Positions 4,913 through 10,556 of a DNA stretch of 64,000 bases are shown one piece after another (the stretch's first letter is position 1; each line of letters starts with the position of its first letter). Made by a program: the position numbers and the translations under genes. Below the pieces are notes generated by a model that was not told the origin of the DNA, made no database searches, and was given only the letters and a program-made list of their open reading frames with translations. The DNA comes from Burkholderiales bacterium RIFCSPLOWO2_12_FULL_61_40 (GTDB taxonomy: Bacteria > Pseudomonadota > Gammaproteobacteria > Burkholderiales > Burkholderiaceae_C). The stretch lies in NCBI GenBank assembly GCA_001770935.1, contig MESI01000001.1, forward strand, positions 1 through 64,000. Direction: 5' to 3'.

Positions 4913-4944
4913 GTGCCCGTGCCGGTGGTGGTTCAAAACCGCAT

Positions 4945-4990
4945 TTGCTATGAATAACATAGCTACTCACGCACTGTTTATGCGGACAGA
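4945..4990 (+). repeat. Palindromic interspersed repeat, copy A (partial)
   Basis: The stem TTGCTATG...CATAGCT and the following TACTCACGCA match the head of the repeat family found at five other sites in this window (near 15.3, 30.6, 35.0, 41.4 and 43.8 kb). The tail is poorly conserved and merges into the 54-bp direct repeat that marks the island edge. It lies between the SNF2 helicase gene and the accessory island. Confidence 0.55.
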
Positions 4991-5024
4991 GCGGTGGAAT
5001 AGCCGTACAAACGTTCGGGCGCTG
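4971..5024. repeat. Left direct repeat of the accessory island, with remnant of an HD-GYP-like gene 3' end
   Basis: These 54 bases match 9369-9422 at 42 of 54 positions in the same orientation, with an uninterrupted 14-base identical core GAATAGCCGTACAA (4997-5010 and 9395-9408). Read on the minus strand (5022 to 4978) they encode APERLYGYSTALSA and a stop, against APERLYGYSAAPPA and a stop at the intact right end. Upstream of the alanine codon the similarity ends, so this is only the last 14 codons of a homologous gene. A displaced gene 3' end at the far side of inserted DNA is the classic footprint of site-specific integration into a gene end. However, 22 percent divergence is high for attL/attR and no integrase is present. 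Confidence 0.7.
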
Positions 5025-5531
5025 CATATTCCGGTGTGACTGATCACCTGTTCCGGAACTCATTGACCATCCAACTTCAATATTCCGGTAGGGCCCTACT
5101 TGATGGTTGCCAACTTCGGATTGGGCTGTCGACTGCACTGGGCCAGTTGCAGTCTTAGGCGAGTGGCAGGTATCTGGCGCTTGAAACATGAATGCGGGTT
5201 GGCCGTAGACCGGTTGTTCCCCGATGTCGGTTCAAGCCCGTAGCGGATGGCCACACGCATGCACTGGAGTGTCTGCAATGTGCAGTCGGATTTATCATTG
5301 CGATCTCGGGAAAGATGTATGTAAACAAGAGCGCAAAATCACTGATGTGCTATGTTGGGTTTGTTTTACATTGAACAATTTAATGATTGGCCGGGTCAAA
5401 AAAATTCATCTGCTGGTAACGAGTATCGCTTCGTGAGTGCGCGACAATTCTAGGAATAGGCGAGCGCATGTCCCATCACTATCGCGCTAGACCCGCGCAA
5501 CTGTAGACAGCGTCGTTAAGTGAGACATCCA

Positions 5532-7664
5532 ATGCTAAACATTATCTGGGGTTCGAACAAAGACAAGCCTGAGGCCGCTAAGGCCTTGGCGAGGCTATTG
5601 TCGGCAGACGCTTTCCATGCGAACGGCTACCTCTACATCGGCTATCCCATTATGGGTTCTCCGATTGGGCCTGTGAAATTCGATGCTTTGCTTCTAAGCA
5701 GGCAGTACGGACTAATCGCATTCGACCTAGTTGAGGGACTTGAATTCGTAGGCTTCGAACAAAGACTGGACGATATTGCATCCATGCTGGAGGTAAAGCT
5801 GAAGCCTTACCCAGCCTTAAAGGAAGGACGTAAACTCAAATTTGAGATTCATACGTTTACGTTTGCACCCGCTAAAAAGGCCCTCCCCGATAGCGCGGAA
5901 CCTTACGTATTGACTAACCGGGACAACCTGCTTGCGTCGGTGGAGAGCTGCCTAGGTCTTTCGGAGGTTCTCTTTACCAATCTTTTAGCTGCCATTCAGG
6001 TGGTGACATCGATTCGCTCAGGCAAACTCAAGCGAGAGCCTAAAAATGCAGCCTCTCGGGGGGCTCGTCTAAAAAGGGTTGAAGAATCCATAGCGAACCT
6101 TGATCAGCATCAGTCACGAGCCGTCATTGAGACAGTTGAGGGGGTACAGCGGATAAGAGGTCTTGCTGGCTCTGGGAAGACCATTGTTCTCGCATTGAAG
6201 GTCGCATATCTCCATTCGCAAAATCCTGACTGGAAAATTGCGGTTACCTTCAACACGCGGTCATTAAAGGACCAGTTCAAGCGACTTATCAACAGCTTCA
6301 CCATTGAGCAGACCAGCACCGAGCCGGACTGGGAAAGAATCGATATCCTTAATGCGTGGGGTGGGCCGGGTGACAAAGAACAAGACGGGATTTATCACAA
6401 GTTCTGTCGCGCGCATGGTATTGATTTCTTGGATTTCGGTGTTGCCAAGGGGCGTTTTGGATCAGGCGGTGCTTTCGGCGGAGCCGTGGCAGAGGCGTTG
6501 AAATTTTCCAGCACCATCAATCCACTGTACGACCTAATCCTCATTGACGAGGCACAGGATTTTCCGCCTGAGTTTCTCCGCCTGTGCCATCGATTCATCT
6601 CGGATCCTAAGCGTCTCGTATATGCCTATGACGAGTTGCAGTCGTTGACCGGAAACGCTGTGCTGCCGCCGGAGGAGCTTTTCGGCAGAGATGCCAGCGG
6701 GAAGCCAATTGTCGAGTTTGACTACTCGGAAAGTGCGATCCCCCGTCAGGACATCATTCTTGAAAAGTGCTATCGAAACCCGCGTCCAGTTTTGGCGGCC
6801 GCCCACGCCCTAGGGTTTGGAATCTATCGCACTGGTGGCCTAGTTCAGTTTTTTGATCAAAACGATCTGTGGACTGACGTCGGGTATGCAGTGTTGGAGG
6901 GGCAGTTGGAGTCCGGGCACGACGTCACTCTCGCTCGTACACCGGAAACGTCGCCATTGTTCCTTGAGGATCACTCTCCACTCGACGACCTTTTGAGCTT
7001 CGTCACATTTCCAGATGCCACAGCGCAGGCACAGTGGCTTTTCGAAAGTATCAAGAACGATATTGAATCAGAAGAACTCAGGCCTGAAGATATTGTTGTA
7101 ATTAATCCAGACCCGTTGAAGACGCAGGAAGCCGTTGGATTAGTGCGTAGACTACTCTTTGGCGCTGGTATAAATAGTGAGATTGCAGGCGTCAGCACCT
7201 CTCGCGACGTATTTAGTAAAGATGGTGCAGTTACATTCACGGGAATCTTTCGCGCGAAGGGGAATGAGGCTGGCATGGTCTATGTTCTTAATGCGCAGGA
7301 TTGCTACTCCGCATTCACCAAGTCTCAGCTCGCACTAATACGTAACCGACTCTTCACCGCCCTTACCCGCTCAAAAGGTTGGGTGAGGGTTCTAGGTGTA
7401 GGGCCGAGGATGGACGACTTGGCCTTAGAGTGGTCGCGGCTGAAGAGTCAGGATTACAAACTTAAGTTTAAGTATCCGACTGAAGAGGAGAAAAAACTCC
7501 TGCGTCTCATCAACATCGAGCCAACCGCTAAGCAGACGGCGCGCGAACGCAGGCTGCAACGGCAGCGTGACGAACTATTGCAGGCTATTCGTGACGGTGA
7601 TATCGACGTCAACCAGTTGCTTAGCGACTTCAGTTCTGCCAGCAAAGAAACGGGTAAAAAGTGA
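5532..7664 (+). CDS. Superfamily 1 (UvrD/Rep-like) DNA/RNA helicase of an accessory island
   Basis: A protein of about 710 residues with a complete SF1 helicase motor in its central and C-terminal parts. A Q-like motif LDQHQSRAV precedes motif I GLAGSGKTIV (lysine 216). Motif Ia is VTFNTRSL, motif II is LILIDEAQDF (first aspartate 339), motif III is YAYDELQSL and motif IV resembles EKCYRNPRPV. Motif V/VI regions are FRAKGNEAGMVYVLNA and RNRLFTALTRSKGWV. The first 150 residues contain a beta-rich stretch (FDALLLSRQYGLIAFDLVEG) placed like the core of a NERD or restriction-endonuclease fold but without a clear ExK. The tail is a charged helix (TARERRLQRQRDELLQAI). ATG 5532 is preferred over GTG 5520 because GTGAG lies at useful spacing before it. 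The gene overlaps the next one by 4 bases. AT-rich codon use and the flanking repeats indicate transfer. A defence role is inferred, not shown. Confidence 0.85.
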   Translation: MLNIIWGSNKDKPEAAKALARLLSADAFHANGYLYIGYPIMGSPIGPVKFDALLLSRQYGLIAFDLVEGLEFVGFEQRLDDIASMLEVKLKPYPALKEGRKLKFEIHTFTFAPAKKALPDSAEPYVLTNRDNLLASVESCLGLSEVLFTNLLAAIQVVTSIRSGKLKREPKNAASRGARLKRVEESIANLDQHQSRAVIETVEGVQRIRGLAGSGKTIVLALKVAYLHSQNPDWKIAVTFNTRSLKDQFKRLINSFTIEQTSTEPDWERIDILNAWGGPGDKEQDGIYHKFCRAHGIDFLDFGVAKGRFGSGGAFGGAVAEALKFSSTINPLYDLILIDEAQDFPPEFLRLCHRFISDPKRLVYAYDELQSLTGNAVLPPEELFGRDASGKPIVEFDYSESAIPRQDIILEKCYRNPRPVLAAAHALGFGIYRTGGLVQFFDQNDLWTDVGYAVLEGQLESGHDVTLARTPETSPLFLEDHSPLDDLLSFVTFPDATAQAQWLFESIKNDIESEELRPEDIVVINPDPLKTQEAVGLVRRLLFGAGINSEIAGVSTSRDVFSKDGAVTFTGIFRAKGNEAGMVYVLNAQDCYSAFTKSQLALIRNRLFTALTRSKGWVRVLGVGPRMDDLALEWSRLKSQDYKLKFKYPTEEEKKLLRLINIEPTAKQTARERRLQRQRDELLQAIRDGDIDVNQLLSDFSSASKETGKK

Positions 7665-8317
7665 ATTTCGATGACGTCAAGCTCCAGCTTGATACGGTTC
7701 TCGGACGAGCCATTGAAACCGGCGTGTCTGTCCAGCAGAACTTCCCAAAAGTTTCTCGTGATGGGGGGGGAATAACGTTGGGTACGATGGCAGGCTCCTC
7801 AATCGCGCTGAGGAATGTTGTCTACAAGGACATCTATACTGAAATCGAGTCCAATGAGCTATTCCACATCAAGCTGCCGGACGGTGGGCTTTTAATCTTC
7901 CAATACACGTTTCACACAGACGGCGTATTAAAGAAGCACCGGCTAGGTTTTTTTCCGTCACCTACGCTTCCCACCCTCGAAGAGGCGCCGGAACTTTACC
8001 GATACGATGAGCTTTACGGCGACATTCTTTCCAAGCAGATCGTGAGGTTTCCTATCAGGTTTGACTTCGATCCAAAAAATTATCGACCACGGTACCATCC
8101 GCACTCACATTTGACACTTGGGCAATTTGAGAATTGCCGTATTCCGGTTACGCACGCAGTGTCGCCAAATGGCTTCCTGCTATTTGTGCTCAGGAACTTT
8201 TACCATCAGCTATACATACGTCATACAAACGTCTTCGAGAAAAAAATCCCGTTGTGCATGACGGCCCTGTGCATCACAGCCAATGAAAGAGGCCTGCCTC
8301 ATTTCGGCTTCGCATAG
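7661..8317 (+). CDS. DUF2290-like protein coupled to the helicase
   Basis: A 218-residue soluble protein beginning with GTG at 7661, so that the start codon overlaps the helicase stop in a GTGA quadruplet. This strongly suggests coupled translation and a shared function. I tentatively place it in the DUF2290 family because of the region RYHPHSHLTLGQ followed by NCRIPVTHAVSP, about residues 147-173; this is recall, not a search result. It has no membrane segment, no nucleotide-binding motif and no nuclease motif that I can identify with confidence, although several histidines cluster in HPHSHL and RNFYHQLYIRH. A structural or sensor partner of the helicase is one possibility; an unrecognised enzyme is another. 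Confidence 0.75.
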   Translation: MNFDDVKLQLDTVLGRAIETGVSVQQNFPKVSRDGGGITLGTMAGSSIALRNVVYKDIYTEIESNELFHIKLPDGGLLIFQYTFHTDGVLKKHRLGFFPSPTLPTLEEAPELYRYDELYGDILSKQIVRFPIRFDFDPKNYRPRYHPHSHLTLGQFENCRIPVTHAVSPNGFLLFVLRNFYHQLYIRHTNVFEKKIPLCMTALCITANERGLPHFGFA

Positions 8318-8585
8318 CGCAGAAGGTGTGACGCAATTATTGTCGAACCACATGAAGTTTCCGGCGTTGGCATCAGCTTGTTGTCGATGACGGATGCCCA
8401 TTTTTGAAGATTAGTGTGCCTGCAAGCTGACATAGCGACCACGACTATCGCGATCTGCGAATGTCGGTTAACGGGCGCTTGATTCGAGGGACGCTAAGAC
8501 CGCAATGGGTCGGTTGCTGCTATCGCTTGGGGCCAATTGAGAGTAGTCGCCGATGACTGGTGTCGGGCATTCGGCTGGGCCACGC

Positions 8586-8795
8586 TCAATCCTTGAGGCT
8601 CACCCCCAGGGCGTCCAGCTTCTTTGCATACGAGTCCCTGCGTTTTGCGGCCTTTGCAGCTGCTTCGGCGGCCGCTTGGATTGCCTTGGGCCCCTTTTGC
8701 GCAGCAGCTTTGATCAATCCGAACTTGTGAGCAGCATCTGCCTGCGCCCGCTTGAAAGTGGCAATGAGTTCGGCATGGGCAACGGATGGATTCAC
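8586..8795 (-). CDS. Small alanine- and lysine-rich hypothetical protein
   Basis: The frame extends upstream to 8972, but that part overlaps the preceding gene out of frame and is not credible. GTG 8795 is the best start: AAGG lies just upstream and the preceding gene's stop is 8 bases away (GTG 8801 is an alternative). This gives 69 residues. The centre is a low-complexity amphipathic helix (AAAQKGPKAIQAAAEAAAKAAKRR), basic overall. It resembles small DNA-binding or coiled segments in composition only. It forms a two-gene unit with the 137-residue gene upstream. Function unknown. Confidence 0.45.
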   Translation of the reverse strand: MNPSVAHAELIATFKRAQADAAHKFGLIKAAAQKGPKAIQAAAEAAAKAAKRRDSYAKKLDALGVSLKD

Positions 8796-8803
8796 AGGCA
8801 CCC

Positions 8804-9217
8804 TTAAAGTTTGACGTTGGTGCGAAGCAAAGCTGTTCTCAATTCGCGAATTGCAGGTATTGAAACATCCACCTTTTGAACCGCCAGGTCGAACGATGAG
8901 CCTGGCCTGATGCTGGTTGGCAGTATCTTTTTTGCGGGATTCGCAGTGGGGTACGTGCCCTGACCCGGACACATGCGAACGGAAAACCCGAATTCTTCGA
9001 GTACGCCTTTCGCATACAACTCCGCCAATTGTTGAAACGTCACGAAGGCTGAGCGTTTAACTTCTTTGAACCCTGGCTCACGGATGTCACGAACGATCTC
9101 GAATTTTCCAAGCGTATCTCGCTGCGTATTGGTAAACGGATGCAGCAGATAAGTCTGACGAACCCCATTCTTTTTGGACACCCGCGTGTGCTCGACGGCG
9201 ATATCAGTTAACAGCAT
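8804..9217 (-). CDS. Hypothetical protein of the accessory island
   Basis: A 137-residue protein starting at ATG 9217 behind a GAGG ribosome binding site. It begins MLLTDIAVEHTRVSKKNG, has a mixed charged body with FVTFQQLAELYAKGVLEEFGF and ends RTALLRTNVKL. No signal peptide, membrane segment or catalytic motif was recognised. It is transcribed towards the helicase pair, and the small alanine-rich gene follows almost immediately. The body could be a small DNA-binding or regulatory fold, but I do not recognise it. Its position between the island genes and the right repeat makes it part of the transferred segment. Confidence 0.55.
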   Translation of the reverse strand: MLLTDIAVEHTRVSKKNGVRQTYLLHPFTNTQRDTLGKFEIVRDIREPGFKEVKRSAFVTFQQLAELYAKGVLEEFGFSVRMCPGQGTYPTANPAKKILPTSIRPGSSFDLAVQKVDVSIPAIRELRTALLRTNVKL

Positions 9218-9368
9218 ATTGTTTTCCTCACTTTTTCAAACCAAGCCACTGGGGAACCGATGGCCCTTGAGATGCGAGGTGCTCGACATGGGCAACCCTC
9301 ACCCTGAGGGCAAGGACTTTAACTGAACGACAGCAAATGGCAGAACCAACACCTGGACGCGGATCGGC

Positions 9369-9422
9369 GCAGTATTTATGCGGGCGGAGCAGCTGAATAG
9401 CCGTACAAGCGCTCGGGGGCCA
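9369..9422. repeat. Right direct repeat of the accessory island (native 3' end of the HD-GYP-like gene)
   Basis: Partner of 4971-5024, with 42 of 54 positions identical and a 14-base perfect core. Here the sequence is the functional end of the reading frame (APERLYGYSAAPPA and stop at 9376). Several of the differences in the coding part change only the third base of codons, as expected from two homologous gene ends that diverged under coding constraint rather than from a recent duplication. Confidence 0.7.
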
Positions 9423-10556
9423 GGCGTTTGAGCATGGCCTTGTCACTCACGCATTCCACAATGGCGAATCCGGCTTGCCCGGTATCGTGGCGCACTGTCT
9501 TGGCGACCGGGTGGCCCGCCGTGTCCGTGATGGAGGCGACGATGGGTGCGCGGGCGTTGGCGGTCCGTTGGACCACCACCCCAACTCGCCCGAGGCCAGC
9601 CGCACAAAATCCCCCGGGGGATAAATGCCGAACTCCTTGATCACGGCCGTGGACAATGCGCCGCCCTTGTCCTCCCTGTACAACTGGGTGATGGCCTCCT
9701 TGGGCAGCAGCGGAGCGCGCAAGGCGCGGGGGCTGATTTTTGCCATGAACACGTCGGCCACCCGCAGGGCAACGGCCATTTCGGAGAGGTCTTTTCGCCC
9801 TGCGGGGTAACCGGTGCCTTCCGCGCACTCGTGGTGCTGCGCAATCGCGCCCAGCCAGTCCGCATTGGTGACGCCGTTTTTTTCTAAAAGCTCTACCGCC
9901 TGCAACGGATGCTCGTGCAGCACCGCGCGTTGCTTGTCCCGCATGGGGGTGTCCTGCCCGGCCATTTGGCCCTGCAGCTCGAAAATCGTCATGTTCATGG
10001 TGAGTGCCGCCTTGACCAGACTCATCATGGATTCCTGGGGCCAATGCAAATGGCGGGAGATCAGCACCCCCACCATGGCCGTATGGATGGCATGGGTGTA
10101 GCCATAGTAAAAATGCTGGGCGTTGTCCTGGCGCACCGAACGGTAAATGGCGATGTCCGGGTTGATGTCAAAAATCTCGATGAGGTGCAGCGCAAAGGCA
10201 TGCAGGCGCGCGGGGAAATCGGGTGCACTCGCCAGATCGGTCAGCAGGGCCTTGAGTTCTTCCGTCGTCTGGTCCCACAGCGCAAAGACACTCAGCATTT
10301 TGCCCATGGACTTGAGGGGATCGCACCCCGAAATCAACAGTCCGCTGACCTTCTTGGCCTCTGCTGCTGCTGCCACCGCCGCCCTCACCTCTTCCTCCTC
10401 GACAAAGGCACCCCGCAAAAGCAGGGCATCCAACAGGTGCTGATCTACAAGCACATGGCCCTTGGCCAACAGCAAGTGGCAATGTTCATCACGCACATTC
10501 CACGGCAATTCGAGGCCCAGCCGGACTTGGGCGCGAGGCAGTCTGAGGAGTTTCAC
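9376..10556 (-). pseudogene. HD-GYP-like domain protein, frameshifted near its C-terminus
   Basis: The protein starts at GTG 10556 behind GGAGG. It reads MKLLRLPRAQ and an N-terminal DUF3391-like region, then an HD-GYP-like domain (about residues 140-310). The GYP half is intact (IAQHHE, EGTGYPAG, RVADVFMAKI). The position of the catalytic HDxGK dyad reads TMNMTIFE, so the metal-binding HD pair is absent and phosphodiesterase activity is doubtful. After SGELG the frame breaks at the C run 9579-9582. Read with one extra C, it continues as VVVQRTANARAPIVAS to SDKAMLKRLAPERLYGYSAAPPA. The product as written instead ends at 9447 with an unrelated tail. The shift could be real decay, a phase-variable tract or a sequencing error. 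Its 3' end is the probable integration target of the adjacent island. Confidence 0.8.

Follow-up and report, generated by a model that had tools for sequence, protein, structure and literature searches.

The locus described here raises the question of what a helicase gene and a small gene overlapping its end do together, and whether they belong to a system that is already known. The two genes lie at positions 5532 to 8317 on the plus strand of the first 64,000 nucleotides of contig MESI01000001.1 from Burkholderiales bacterium RIFCSPLOWO2_12_FULL_61_40, a stretch referred to as the window. A sequence-only reading had called the pair, a superfamily 1 (SF1) helicase and a DUF2290-like protein, a candidate two-gene defence or DNA-processing system. 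By its sequence, the pair is a new copy of the phage-defence system already described as Helicase+DUF2290. The defence part of the earlier label therefore stands and the word candidate is outdated, since a pair from P4-like satellites, made up of an ATP-dependent helicase and a DUF2290 protein, was reported to inhibit phage T7 specifically (Rousset et al. 2022, PMC9122126) and the system is included in PADLOC. With T7 inhibition known for a relative, the question is now narrowed to a set of invariant residues in DUF2290 and to a catalytic E-x-K that is missing from the helicase.

Identity and linkage of the two genes

The helicase gene (5532..7664) encodes 710 amino acids from an ATG at 5532, or 714 from a GTG at 5520; the alignments of its relatives begin near the residue that matches the ATG. 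The protein is UvrD-like and matches the PADLOC model "Helicase" (PDLC03002) with an expectation value (E) of 9.7e-280, residues 5-706 of the 714-residue form aligning with positions 1-698 of the 707 in the model, and it scores over the cut-offs of the Pfam models UvrD-helicase (1.1e-6) and UvrD_C_2 (1.4e-7). In the PDB, a sequence search matched the helicase to three PcrA sequences over 69 residues (E 3e-4 to 8e-4) and, at E 0.31, to a t-SNARE. The full set of motifs claimed earlier is present. Residues 210-217 (6159..6182, plus strand) form the Walker A motif and residues 339-343, DEAQD (6546..6560, plus strand), motif II. K216 and T217 in the former and D339, E340, Q342 and D343 in the latter are invariant in 24 diverse members, as are Q370, Y414-R415-N416, K576-A580 and R613. 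Because these residues are invariant in all 24, the helicase should be an active ATPase.

The second gene (7661..8317, plus strand) starts with GTG and encodes 218 amino acids that match Pfam PF10053 (E 1.5e-46) and the PADLOC model "DUF2290" (PDLC02999, E 5.1e-65). Its start lies within the stop of the helicase gene in a four-base GTGA overlap (7661..7664, plus strand), as the sequence-only reading had seen, and because the genes overlap in this way it follows that the two proteins are presumably made together.

A lack of conserved linkage of the two families in other genomes had been set beforehand as a possible refutation, and the linkage was found to be conserved. Starting from DUF2290, a helicase lies directly upstream in 25 of 26 fetched loci, the exception stopping at a contig edge. 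Starting from the helicase, DUF2290 follows downstream in 76 of 80 loci; two of the others end at the helicase and two are without DUF2290, so that the count is 76 among the 78 with sequence past the helicase. These 80 are the best of 499 confirmed loci, and since the query alignment was built from DUF2290-linked helicases they lean towards the system. The gap between the genes ranges from -100 to +50 base pairs in 75 of the 76 pairs, the odd pair having a shortened helicase frame, and 33 of them show the exact four-base overlap. A few loci (for example L081 and L120) have one of the genes broken or truncated at a contig end. The helicase alignment also found 19 viral contigs, and all 15 that have downstream sequence carry DUF2290; a single-protein query with DUF2290 found none in viral contigs, and DUF2290 is in 0 of 50,697 phage records. 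The distances within the two families also correlate with each other (mirror tree, r 0.88 over the 70 of 76 pairs that passed length filters; highest of 1000 permutations 0.11), a value to which shared species history contributes.

The two proteins and their possible division of labour

The DUF2290 protein was aligned with 97 others, namely 88 of the 89 that passed a length filter (one near-duplicate was left out) and 9 of 23 further sequences. Six residues are invariant in all 98: D74 (7880..7882, plus strand), R133, H146, H150, R160 and F172. A seventh position, D135, is aspartate in 95 and glutamate in 3. Most of them fall in the conserved core R133-F-D135 ... H146-P-x-x-H150-x-T ... R160 (8057..8140, plus strand), and it is because of this invariance that the protein is read as having an active site. 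The structural model is of good quality (predicted local distance difference test score, pLDDT, 88.4; predicted template modelling score, pTM, 0.86) and consists of an N-terminal helix, strands at 77-85, 89-98, 132-136, 149-153 and 161-163, and a helix at 169-180. The invariant polar residues sit in the modelled strands or a few residues from them, which suggests that they form one active site. Foldseek gave no match to this model at E <= 1e-3 in the PDB (best E 0.36 among 255 matches) or in BFVD (best 0.13 among 451), and a sequence search of the PDB returned a single chain at E 0.68.

The helicase carries an N-terminal domain (residues 1-191; 5532..6104, plus strand) that, with moderate support, looks like a degenerate NERD-type nuclease fold of the PD-(D/E)XK class without the standard active site. 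The apparent loss of the ExK lysine in a NERD-like domain at this place is new to the present analysis, as are the invariant residues and the structural model of DUF2290. The AlphaFold2 model of these residues has a pLDDT of 89.6, and its best Foldseek match (E 2.5e-3) falls short of E <= 1e-3. About 40 of the 50 listed Foldseek rows are PD-(D/E)XK-type nucleases, namely the R2 endonuclease, BspD6I, Card1, Can2, McrBC, Bax1, SduA and EndoMS; Schlafens, a Rab and a ribosome factor are among the others. Compared by hhalign with a NERD profile of 11 domains (of 14 NERD matches, 3 that were short or contained a stop were dropped), the domain scored 22.4 with a P value of 0.0074, at an hhalign probability of only 5%; none of 100 column-shuffled controls reached this score, the highest being 16.4. 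Pfam NERD itself matches 2 of 81 N-termini in an alignment of the window protein with 80 of 96 helicases (best E 0.036). In the hhalign register, D51 stands opposite the NERD aspartate and D65-L-V67 opposite the catalytic E-x-K. The latter is absent from the family: position 65 is D in 39, N in 19, H in 8 and S in 7 of the 81 rows (73 in all), and position 67 is V in 47 and I in 24 (71 in all), with K in one.

Taken together, these features make it somewhat probable, in our judgement, that the locus is a horizontally acquired anti-phage pair in which the helicase is sensor and motor and DUF2290 the effector, probably a nuclease. The split into sensor and effector is most likely for the window locus because of the invariance in DUF2290, the loss of E-x-K in the helicase and the analogy with Hachiman. 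Powered by ATP, the helicase would scan DNA or translocate along it and would recognise DNA structures of fast-replicating foreign DNA, such as that of T7 in the tested relative and possibly of small plasmids. The N-terminal nuclease-fold domain, its catalytic lysine lost, would bind DNA or hold the partner, and the helicase would keep DUF2290 off until triggered. The D/R/H/H/R set of DUF2290 would be the active site, probably of a nuclease, and once triggered the protein would destroy phage or host nucleic acid in infected cells. The sequence-only reading knew of no described mechanism for the pair, which agrees with the consulted parts of the literature searched, including papers that name DUF2290, where none was found; the role of the helicase domains is called unexplored in one of the sources (PMC10952713).

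The PA1372 and PA1371 genes of Pseudomonas aeruginosa PAO1, now predicted to be a Helicase+DUF2290 system (PMC11637435), are relevant here. Without PA1372, plasmid pNUK73 no longer carries a cost or induces the SOS response (PMC4410645), a result that fits a system reacting to the replication of small foreign DNA, although the published explanation differs. PMC11637435 already connects phage defence with plasmid cost in PAO1, and the two may share one mechanism. A more specific version is tentative and, in our view, rather doubtful as a whole: DUF2290 may act as an effector enzyme whose fold has yet to enter the PDB and whose active site is D/R/(D)/H/H/R, an SF1 helicase with a disarmed NERD-type domain may gate it, and the same machine may react to phage and to small-plasmid replication, the cost of pNUK73 being an autoimmune-like firing. 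The point of specialist interest is the chemistry of DUF2290.

Several points weigh against reading the pair as a sensor with a DUF2290 nuclease. The division between the proteins is one that we infer by analogy with Hachiman and Gabija. Foldseek gave no fold match in the PDB and BFVD that would indicate a nuclease, and the best match to a nuclease family among the 98 DUF2290 members is PvuII, at E 0.14 in one member. In PAO1, loss of either of two unrelated kinases (PA4673.15-16) acts on the cost of pNUK73 like loss of PA1372, the authors explain the cost through raised rep expression, and four other plasmids are without such an effect (PMC4410645). Two loci, L070 and L115, have full-length helicases with no DUF2290 downstream. 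Finally, D51 (76 of 81 rows), E68 (70), D80 (79), K/R89 (78) and R100 (74) are near-invariant in the helicase N-terminus, and a rearranged active site is possible there.

This last point, with the PD-(D/E)XK-like fold and the two loci that keep the helicase without its partner, speaks for an explanation in which the helicase is both sensor and effector, cutting through a rearranged site made of D51, E68, D80 and K/R89, while DUF2290 serves as regulator or DNA-binding adaptor. It is nevertheless unlikely, given that the E-x-K positions are replaced in most members and that the strictly invariant columns of the domain are only G60, L96 and D191, compared with the six, mostly polar, in DUF2290. 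A toxin-antitoxin logic has also been considered, in which DUF2290 would be a growth-stopping toxin like TumE (DUF6516), held by the helicase and freed when a phage disturbs it. Short motifs occur by eye in the same order (KYRLAY / HRLAF, RYDN / RFDF and HRH / HLT), and one of the 98 DUF2290 members weakly matches Pfam TumE at E 0.082. Kinship was not borne out in comparisons with 19 fetched TumE-type sequences, however. An initial alignment-to-alignment comparison gave nothing, hhalign gave a P value of 0.077 with 12 of 100 column-shuffled controls scoring as high, and a divergent subset of 12 gave 0.18 with 11 of 100 as high. In the PDB, the TumE profile finds no chain below E 0.88, so the fold search is unable to decide on this kinship, and the toxin explanation as a whole appears very unlikely.

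The pair could instead be a module for DNA processing or for the maintenance of plasmids and islands rather than for immunity. DUF2290 occurs in 14 of 72,556 plasmid records, and a helicase-type gene lies directly upstream in all 11 of the 14 that were examined. At the DNA level, five of 5,426 E. coli genomes have a match to a plasmid copy of the pair, three of them across most of it. Of the three E. coli loci examined, two have the pair next to trb genes and a recombinase gene, and in the third it lies within an SPI-7-type integrative and conjugative element, next to replication genes. Loss of PA1372 also lowers expression of the plasmid rep gene, the rep construct having been tested, within the consulted parts of that paper, only in plasmid-free parental PAO1 (PMC4410645). 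These observations are offset by the reported inhibition of T7 by a relative (PMC9122126) and by a Thioflavicoccus plasmid in which the pair (L011 5756-8684) is embedded in a BREX cluster, with a methyltransferase gene on one side and the PglZ gene on the other, which leaves the maintenance explanation highly improbable.

Distribution and genomic setting

The presence of the pair is patchy. PF10053 is carried by 1 of 100 genomes sampled from the genus, 6 of 399 from the family, 4 of 369 from the class and 9 of 398 from the phylum, in partly overlapping samples that each include the window's own genome. The record titles of the 80 helicase-selected loci name Proteobacteria, Planctomycetes, Cyanobacteria, Firmicutes, Latescibacterota, Chlorobaculum, Spirochaetia and others, and published copies lie in Vibrionales and Bacillales prophage hotspots (PMC9122126).

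Some copies adjoin other defence genes. In Nostoc the pair has type I restriction genes next to it, along with a DarT-like gene, and in Mycobacterium gordonae it lies about 5 kb from AbiEi/AbiEii genes. Enrichment near defence genes, which had been proposed as a check, is suggestive only. In a random sample of 143 of the 768 neighbouring open reading frames (ORFs) within 8 kb of the pair at 65 loci, 7 ORFs with a type I specificity match and 4 with a match to a type I methyltransferase model were found among the matches listed (best 25 of 194 families). Specificity genes thus stand at 7 of 143 compared with 0 of 64 control ORFs (best 25 of 31 families), which is not significant (Fisher, two-sided p 0.10, one-sided 0.07), and the controls were taken from the window and from four loci within its genus, organisms different from those of the neighbours. 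With the one UvrD-like ORF left out, the complete list for the other 63 controls has four families and no type I match. Four Acinetobacter plasmid records (L007, L014, L016 and L187) have BrnA or BrnT/BrnA toxin-antitoxin genes next to the pair. One of these plasmids, pMS32-3, has DUF2290 annotated as two overlapping pieces (L007 2950-3619), which are one gene on a related plasmid.

The sequence-only reading placed the pair in an apparent island, and this label is fair and not proven. In its favour, the guanine-plus-cytosine (GC) content of the pair is 0.506, compared with 0.608 in the remaining window, and of the window's 64 kilobases the four poorest in GC are those at 5001-9000. A near relative (L200) retains the left flank as far as about window position 5154, close to one contig end, and, on another contig and close to its start, the right flank from 9370 onwards; the sequence beyond the flanks differs, and neither flank locus has a BLAST match inside 5155-9367. 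On the other side, no clean empty site was seen, the two flanks of the relative being on different contigs. ARAGORN found no transfer RNA gene in the window. A direct repeat of 53 bases, 81% identical, flanks the low-GC segment at 4970-5022 and 9368-9420. Its left copy falls in 4944-5154, a stretch of 211 bases with 95% identity in the near relative, and its right copy overlaps the 3' end of a minus-strand ORF at 9376-10044.

Beside the pair, two small overlapping ORFs on the minus strand (8586-9217) match no family at E <= 0.01. They were considered as a third component and set aside, no tblastn match at E <= 0.01 being found among the fetched loci outside the window's own. A minus-strand gene next to the island (9376-10556) is HD-domain-like by eye and looks frameshifted: of the 368 residues in the long frame, its four closest relatives cover roughly 1-326 only, and its C-terminal part seems to carry on in the neighbouring frame (9376-10044).

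Comparison with known systems

Several two-gene systems resemble the window pair to different degrees. The STM2767/STM2766 families (NCBIfam NF053713 and NF053714) are by name a helicase and a helicase-associated protein. The window helicase matches the former at E 3e-35, and the latter weakly matches 10 of 98 DUF2290 members (best E 0.0014), but at 121.8 of 550 bits and 12.9 of 70 bits the window proteins fall well short of the curated cut-offs. The STM2766 family was also looked for as a bridge, and 0 of 200 phylum genomes match it; the control genomes gave 0 as well, so that this result does not show absence.

Hachiman (HamAB) and AbpAB likewise combine a helicase with a partner, and in Hachiman the helicase HamB senses DNA damage and HamA cuts (PMC12278908). 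Their helicases are described as Ski2-like, whereas that of the window is UvrD-like with a DUF2290 partner, and neither window protein matches a Hachiman or AbpAB model in PADLOC at E <= 1. Gabija (GajAB) also pairs a UvrD-like helicase with an effector, but the best GajB model reaches only E 1.6e-8 on the window helicase, compared with 9.7e-280 for the "Helicase" model. Nor does the partner resemble the OLD-type nuclease GajA, since all its PADLOC and Pfam matches at E <= 1 are to DUF2290 models. PA1371-PA1372 of PAO1, in a low-GC island present in 3 of 18 genomes and studied for plasmid cost, is named in print as a predicted Helicase+DUF2290 system and is likened to the window pair by that published label, not by sequence. 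The closest counterpart is the Helicase+DUF2290 system of Rousset et al. 2022 and PADLOC: the window copy, identified by sequence, has a different host and locus, and the T7 activity is that of the relative, while both proteins, their adjacency and the mobile setting are shared.

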